This document shows, in pieces, positions 37,633-39,052 of a stretch of 64,000 nucleotides of DNA (its first letter is position 1; every line of letters starts with the position of its first letter). A model generated the notes under the pieces. The model was not told the origin of the DNA. It made no database searches and was given only the letters and a program-made list of their open reading frames with translations. The stretch covers positions 1-64,000 of the forward strand of contig PLUM01000053.1 of the NCBI GenBank assembly GCA_003165465.1, given 5' to 3'. Source of the stretch: Acidobacteriota bacterium (lineage in GTDB: Bacteria > Acidobacteriota > Terriglobia > Acidiferrales > UBA7541). Position numbers and translations under genes: made by a program.

Positions 37633-37786
37633 TAAAACAATCGCGAACCTCTAACCGGGGCATTACCGGAAAAGCACTCGCCGTTCGTGCTGTGATACTC
37701 TGTGCTGCGGGCTGGAAGCTCCGGTGTTGCGTTGTATCGGGGCCGGGCGTTTCATTTCATTCAGCGCGAAAGCAAAGGAAACCAAC

Positions 37787-38260
37787 GTGACCGCGACACT
37801 GCGATTTCTTCAGTTTTTCTCATTGGGCTGCTGGCTGGGCGGAATCCTGTTCTTCAGCTTTGTGGTCGCGCAGGGCGCATTCAGCATCCTGCCGAACAAG
37901 GACCTGGCTGGGGCGCTGGTGGGATATTCGCTGGCGCGGCTGCACATTCTGGGCATCGTGGCCGGCTGCGTGTATTTGATCGCCACCGCCGTGCTGGAAA
38001 AATCCATGAGTGCGCTGGCGCGTCCCGCCGCGCTGCTCGTGTTCGCGATGGTCGTCTGCACCATGCTCTCGCAATATGGGGTCATTGCGCGCATGGACGT
38101 GCTGCGCGCGCAGATGGGCTCGGTCGCCGCAACGCCCGCCGAAAACCCGCTCCGCTCGTCGTTCGATCGCCTGCACCAATATTCGGTATGGCTGGAGAGC
38201 ATCGTGCTCCTTTCCGGCCTCACGGCCTTGTTTCTCACGGCACGCCAGAAATTTTCCTGA
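37787..38260 (+). CDS. DUF4149-like membrane protein
   Basis: A protein of 157 aa from GTG 37787, with AAGGAAA 7 bp upstream. Four membrane helices are predicted (about 5-28, 48-68, 76-98 and 132-150). The first begins FLQFFSLGCWLGGILFFSFVV, a pattern of DUF4149/TMEM205-like proteins. A charged stretch (RMDVLRAQMGSVAATP) lies between helices 3 and 4. The function is unknown. It is followed 81 bp later by the CADD-type gene. Confidence 0.75.
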   Translation: MTATLRFLQFFSLGCWLGGILFFSFVVAQGAFSILPNKDLAGALVGYSLARLHILGIVAGCVYLIATAVLEKSMSALARPAALLVFAMVVCTMLSQYGVIARMDVLRAQMGSVAATPAENPLRSSFDRLHQYSVWLESIVLLSGLTALFLTARQKFS

Positions 38261-38341
38261 GCGCCAATAGAAATCGCTTTTCGTCATTGAAATGAAATCG
38301 GCGTGACCTTAAAATTCATACTCCCGAGGGGGGAACTCAAA

Positions 38342-39052
38342 ATGGAAATTTCCGCATTCTGGCAAAAGGCCGGCCAGGAAATCGAAAAATACAATTTACT
38401 GAAGCACCCATTCTATCAAGCGTGGACCGCGGGCGAGTTGACGAAGGAAGACTTGCAATTTTACGCCGAGCAGTATTACCACCAGGTTTCCCAGTTCCCC
38501 ACTTATCTTACGGCGCTCCATTCCCGCTTGCCGGAGGGGGCAATGCGCCGGGACGTACTTGCGAACGCGTACGAGGAAGAGTGCGACGGGTTGGCGCATT
38601 CCGACCTTTGGCTGCGATTTATCGAGGGCATGGGCGGCGCGGGATCGAATCCCGACAAGGAAACGCCGATCCCGGAAATGAGCGAGCTGGTGAAGACGTT
38701 CCGCGCGCTGGCGCAGGAATCGTCCGTGGCGGCCGCCTTCGGTGCACTGTTTGCCTACGAGTCTCAGGTGCCCCAGATCGCCGCTGAAAAACGGAATGGG
38801 TTGAAGAAACATTACGGCGCGGACGACCGCACGTGCAGCTACTTCACCTTGCACCGGACGACAGATGTCCATCATTCGAATGTGTGGAGCAAAATTATTT
38901 CCGCGCTCATCGAGCAGGATGACCGCCTCGCGGCGGAGGCGTTGCAAGGAATTTCCCGCGCCGCACAAGCCCTGTGGACAGCCCTCGACGGCATTGAACG
39001 CGAGCGCCCGAATCGCAAGGCCGGGAACTGCGCCGGAACCACAACGAATTAG
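38342..39052 (+). CDS. CADD-type heme-oxygenase-fold diiron protein (candidate pABA synthase)
   Basis: A protein of 236 aa from ATG 38342 (GGGGGAAC upstream). It is all-helical and resembles CADD of Chlamydia, a diiron enzyme that makes p-aminobenzoate from its own residues. Candidate metal ligands, in CADD-like spacing, are E79, H86, E140, H171, D175 and H178 (YEEECDGLAHSD, YES, HRTTDVHH). Residues matching the CADD donors Y27 and K152 are Y25 and K150, offset by two as are the first three ligands. Known chemistry: the tyrosine gives the ring and the lysine the amino group, so each enzyme turns over once. A conventional pabA-type subunit (2118-2678) is also present. Activity here is inferred. 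Confidence 0.85.
   Translation: MEISAFWQKAGQEIEKYNLLKHPFYQAWTAGELTKEDLQFYAEQYYHQVSQFPTYLTALHSRLPEGAMRRDVLANAYEEECDGLAHSDLWLRFIEGMGGAGSNPDKETPIPEMSELVKTFRALAQESSVAAAFGALFAYESQVPQIAAEKRNGLKKHYGADDRTCSYFTLHRTTDVHHSNVWSKIISALIEQDDRLAAEALQGISRAAQALWTALDGIERERPNRKAGNCAGTTTN

Follow-up and report, generated by a model that had tools for sequence, protein, structure and literature searches.

Does the gene at positions 38,342–39,052 (+ strand; 236 aa) of the window, as we call the whole 64,000-nucleotide stretch analyzed here, encode a protein that makes p-aminobenzoate (pABA) by sacrificing its own side chains, and is it how this bacterium obtains a folate precursor that is normally made by PabB? The assembly that holds the window is 4.6 Mb in size and 89% complete, and the named relatives of the protein belong to the Terriglobia (Acidobacteriota). 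We assigned the gene to the CADD/PabS family from profile matches, sequence alignment, and an AlphaFold model. Its product scored 213.8 bits against TIGR04305, the NCBIfam model for CADD, where the cut-off is 200, and the closest solved sequences were those of Nitrosomonas europaea 4-aminobenzoate synthase (PabS; 1.8e-38) and then Chlamydia trachomatis CADD. These matches, with the alignment to both proteins, bear out a preliminary description of the gene as CADD-type with a complete set of self-sacrifice residues. The start codon is preceded by gaggggggaactcaaa, a Shine-Dalgarno-like and good ribosome-binding sequence. A sigma-70-like promoter match (TTGAAA-17-TAAAAT; 38,287–38,315, + strand) just 5' of the start is a consensus match only, and one such match was found where 0.6 would be expected.

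The AlphaFold model of the protein (mean pLDDT 94.4) matched the crystal structure of C. trachomatis CADD (1rcw) best, with a Z score of 30.6 and a deviation of 1.5 Å over 213 residues; every other family in the fold ranking had a Z score of 26.5 or less. By alignment with C. trachomatis CADD and N. europaea PabS, six dimetal ligands, three histidines and three carboxylates (Glu79, His86, Glu140, His171, Asp175, and His178), are all present, as are the sacrificial pair Tyr25/Lys150 and Tyr41, which is essential; these three align with Tyr25, Lys159, and Tyr41 of the N. europaea enzyme. Tyr41, Tyr45, Trp90, Tyr139, and Tyr167 occupy positions of the radical path or of metal selection, the residue roles being those described for the known enzymes (PMC11965152). 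Across 34 aligned sequences, Tyr25, Tyr41, Tyr45, Trp90, and all six ligands were invariant, and Lys150 was kept in at least 90%. The preliminary description had these residues aligning with constant offsets, which is nearly right: relative to C. trachomatis CADD the offset is +2 through Lys150 and, after one indel, +3 from His171 on.

By analogy with C. trachomatis CADD and N. europaea PabS, whose self-sacrifice chemistry has been described (PMC11965152; PMC13108848), we consider it highly probable that the gene product is a pABA synthase that works on itself. In such a mechanism, the dimetal center would activate O2, and an oxidizing equivalent would pass through Tyr167/Tyr139, Tyr45, Tyr41, and Trp90 to Tyr25. 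The Tyr25 side chain would then be cut between Cα and Cβ, leaving glycine behind; the carboxylate oxygens of pABA would come from O2 and the amino group from Lys150, and the released pABA would go to FolP, with each protein molecule turning over once. We favor this reading because of the residues and fold described above, the genomic context of related genes, the failure to find PabB in profile searches of the genome, and the erosion of the active site in relatives that have PabB.

As in all the absences reported here, that of PabB rests on profile searches. TrpE was the sole chorismate-utilizing enzyme found in the genome, and it passed the TrpE equivalog cut-off (593.6 versus 517.7) and failed the PabB models. 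No PabB scored above its cut-off in this 89%-complete assembly or in five genomes of the same genus, those 94–97% complete agreeing; one genome of the genus (G003) has extra partial TrpE-type matches. A TrpG/PabA-type glutamine amidotransferase subunit gene does lie in the window, as had been noted (2,118–2,678, – strand; TIGR00566, 240 bits), and its product also gets good scores from the subunit models for aminodeoxychorismate synthase. With TrpE present and PabB not found, this subunit most likely pairs with TrpE. The earlier suggestion of two routes to pABA thus loses its support and is rejected as stated, since neither this genome nor the five others of the genus yielded PabB. FolP is present, and CADD is the only recognized route to pABA that we found in the genome. 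The status of PabC, which was to be checked together with PabB, is ambiguous: the class-IV aminotransferases are IlvE and one other protein that falls below every curated cut-off.

That second aminotransferase is part of the alternative that survives best, in which TrpE and TrpG, with a PabC- or D-amino-acid-transaminase-like class-IV aminotransferase, make aminodeoxychorismate and pABA in the family of this bacterium (f1), leaving CADD to supply pABA in a secondary or conditional role. We regard this as a possibility to be taken seriously, although an unlikely one. Many f1 genomes with FolP have TrpE only and no CADD, each of the 24 f1 genomes tested, with CADD or without it, has a further class-IV aminotransferase in addition to IlvE, and the good scores of the window trpG product against aminodeoxychorismate synthase models fit as well. 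Against it stand the failure of TrpE in the PabB models, CADD-bearing genomes of family f11 that have no second class-IV aminotransferase, and the erosion of CADD sites where a true PabB is present.

The distribution of the two genes bears on both readings. Among 151 genomes, comprising that of the window and 150 relatives, 49 have a full-length CADD (at least 160 bits) and 23 have PabB above the cut-off, with split or partial PabB in two more (G051 and G069). CADD and PabB never co-occur in this set outside one related genus, g4, and only 1 of 40 named CADD-bearing genomes has PabB above the cut-off. In family f11, three genomes that are 99–100% complete (G110, G141, and G146) have CADD and FolP but neither PabB nor PabC; in two of their relatives, G117 and G129, CADD is missing and PabB is fused to PabC. 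Roughly half of the 151 genomes lack both CADD and PabB, and FolP and TrpE are present in the majority of that half; one such genome (G002; 97% complete) belongs to the same genus as the window genome. Near-complete Terriglobia genomes of this kind include G002, G006, G007, G009, G014, G016, and G019, among others. Another source of pABA must therefore exist in the family, TrpE promiscuity or uptake for example, and it could operate in this bacterium too, so a genome's lack of PabB is no proof that its pABA comes from CADD. In the library that we searched, no paper was found that deals with PabB, or with auxotrophy for pABA, in Acidobacteria.

Genus g4 offers what looks like a natural experiment. 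It comprises 20 genomes, nine with PabB and 11 without, with PabB fused to PabC in some species. In the nine with PabB, we found five CADD copies with lesions in the active site, two intact copies, and two genomes without CADD; in the 11 without PabB, nine copies were intact and two incomplete assemblies had no CADD. The lesions are H171Y and H178N (G047), H178N (G069), H171R and H178R (G067), H86R (G030), and Y25H, Y45C, and K150Q (G008). Among CADD-bearing g4 genomes, lesions thus occur in 5 of 7 with PabB versus 0 of 9 without it (Fisher, 0.005). They represent four independent events in PabB-bearing genomes, and the lesioned tips are longer (Mann-Whitney, 0.007). Branches amounting to 7% of the tree carry four of six lesion events, for which chance would be about 0.0004, a rough figure that varies with branch assignment; a strict test by phylogenetically independent pairs had too few pairs for significance. 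PabB coexists with an intact-looking CADD site in G020, G065, and the genome of locus L187. The association between PabB and the lesions favors the view that CADD has been selected for making pABA.

The lesioned copies (L070–L073 and L075) nevertheless remain open, with dN/dS values of about 0.12–0.2 that indicate purifying selection. Because these values are low, the copies are not drifting freely, and we find no support for treating them as plain pseudogenes; the values hint at a second, non-pABA role that they may have retained. Retention of Tyr25 and Lys150 by descent only, in a dimetal oxygenase that acts mainly on some other substrate or in a protein with a non-catalytic role, would account for this selection. 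It would also fit five g4 genomes (G035, G045, G055, G057, and G061) in which CADD is intact and FolP was not found, the pterin-binding matches being only MetH-like or truncated large frames, so that pABA there would be without its usual partner enzyme. Precedents exist in the moonlighting of C. trachomatis CADD and in the alternate function raised by the authors for the N. europaea enzyme (PMC11965152). We nonetheless judge this explanation improbable for the gene in the window, given that Tyr25 is invariant and Lys150 nearly so over the 34 sequences, that CADD adjoins folK or folP in relatives, and that CADD lesions are linked to PabB.

In the genus of this bacterium, gene order around CADD is conserved as MutY-DUF58-MoxR-DUF4149-CADD-AlkA, with YchF after AlkA in the window and in G005; the upstream neighbor in the window, a DUF4149 membrane protein gene conserved across the genus, lies on the same strand (37,724–38,260, +). 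None of the annotated genes surrounding this CADD is a folate gene. In five other loci of the same branch of the tree (L122, L123, L130, L133, and L154), folK lies directly upstream of CADD, and in another (L115, 586–2,964) CADD, folP, and folK form a cluster. The L115 contig is labelled Actinobacteria, and its CADD lies at the base of the Acidobacteriota branch, which makes it either a mislabelled bin or a transfer. The tree places the CADD proteins of the genus together with copies from Acidobacteriaceae and Korobacteraceae-type lineages (99% support) and apart from those of other genera of the same family, a pattern that implies transfer or differential loss. Three divergent sequences were also seen. 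One, on a long branch (L189, 9,719–10,708), has arginine for Lys150 with the other residues intact, in a genome with only fragmentary chorismate-enzyme matches. The other two (L081, 5,649–6,410, and L082, 3,927–4,664) are CADD-like and keep all dimetal ligands but have phenylalanine at the Tyr25 position and isoleucine at that of Lys150; by sequence, they are probably another enzyme of the superfamily.

The residues also suggest which metals are used. C. trachomatis CADD has a Mn/Fe cofactor and Tyr141/Tyr170, N. europaea PabS has Fe/Fe and Phe148/Phe177, a Phe-to-Tyr change switches the metal, and the authors suggested host iron restriction as a reason for Mn/Fe (PMC11965152). The protein from the window has the pair linked to Mn/Fe (Tyr139/Tyr167), from which we infer that it would prefer Mn/Fe over Fe/Fe. 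Nearly all Terriglobia copies have the Tyr/Tyr pair as well, the full residue string being common to 122 rows. If sequence is a guide to metal choice, its occurrence in soil bacteria argues against reading Mn/Fe as a sign of host iron restriction and questions the published link to intracellular iron limitation. With cultured relatives that are not pathogens, how metal choice relates to lifestyle becomes testable. A broader proposal is more doubtful still than the TrpE-based alternative, and we offer it as speculation: that CADD commonly replaces PabB and PabC in the Terriglobia, that its Tyr/Tyr (Mn/Fe-type) site in free-living bacteria would mean that Mn/Fe is no adaptation to host iron, and that beside a PabB-PabC fusion catalysis has been lost yet CADD is kept by purifying selection for a second, non-catalytic function.

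It is rare for an enzyme to act once and destroy itself in making a vitamin precursor that the cell cannot do without; such chemistry has been characterized in only two proteins in the literature that we searched. We now place an intact version in soil bacteria that form a large clade and include cultured members (Edaphobacter and Paracidobacterium). Earlier work had described the family and its use by free-living bacteria. What we add is how widely it is spread across Terriglobia, the Tyr/Tyr pair of the soil-bacterial copies, and the erosion linked to PabB; the library searched yielded no paper on these three points.

The known systems most like this one share some features with it and differ in others. 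PqqC, BesC, and UndA, heme-oxygenase-like dimetal or cofactor-free oxidases, share its fold, but no sacrificial Tyr/Lys pair is known in them. That PqqC, TenA, or a BesC-like enzyme of this superfamily has been misread as CADD has practically no probability, for despite weak matches to their models only the CADD model scored above its cut-off (37.3 versus a cut-off of 240 for PqqC, with BesC likewise far below), C. trachomatis CADD stood clear in the fold ranking, and the genome has its own, separate PqqC gene in a pqq cluster. In the same genome, a pqqB-like and pqqC pair lies with a radical-SAM (pqqE-like) gene at locus L001 (G000:C106). C. trachomatis CADD (CT610; PDB 1rcw, 8va9, and 8vag) is the best fold match, with the same ligands, with Tyr27 and Lys152 at the positions of Tyr25 and Lys150, and with a Tyr141/Tyr170 pair like that of the protein from the window; it is only about 35% identical, however, comes from an obligate intracellular host, and is encoded inside a folate gene cluster, unlike the gene in the window. 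N. europaea PabS (NE1434; PDB 9pj4) is the best sequence match among solved structures, with the sacrificial Tyr25 and lysine and the ligands in common, but has phenylalanines in place of Tyr139 and Tyr167 and a loop insertion that is missing from our protein in the alignment. This enzyme sacrifices Tyr25 and Lys159 and complements E. coli ΔpabABC (PMC11965152), and its source is free-living, like the bacterium studied here, so that free-living use of such an enzyme, called notable in the preliminary description, is not new.
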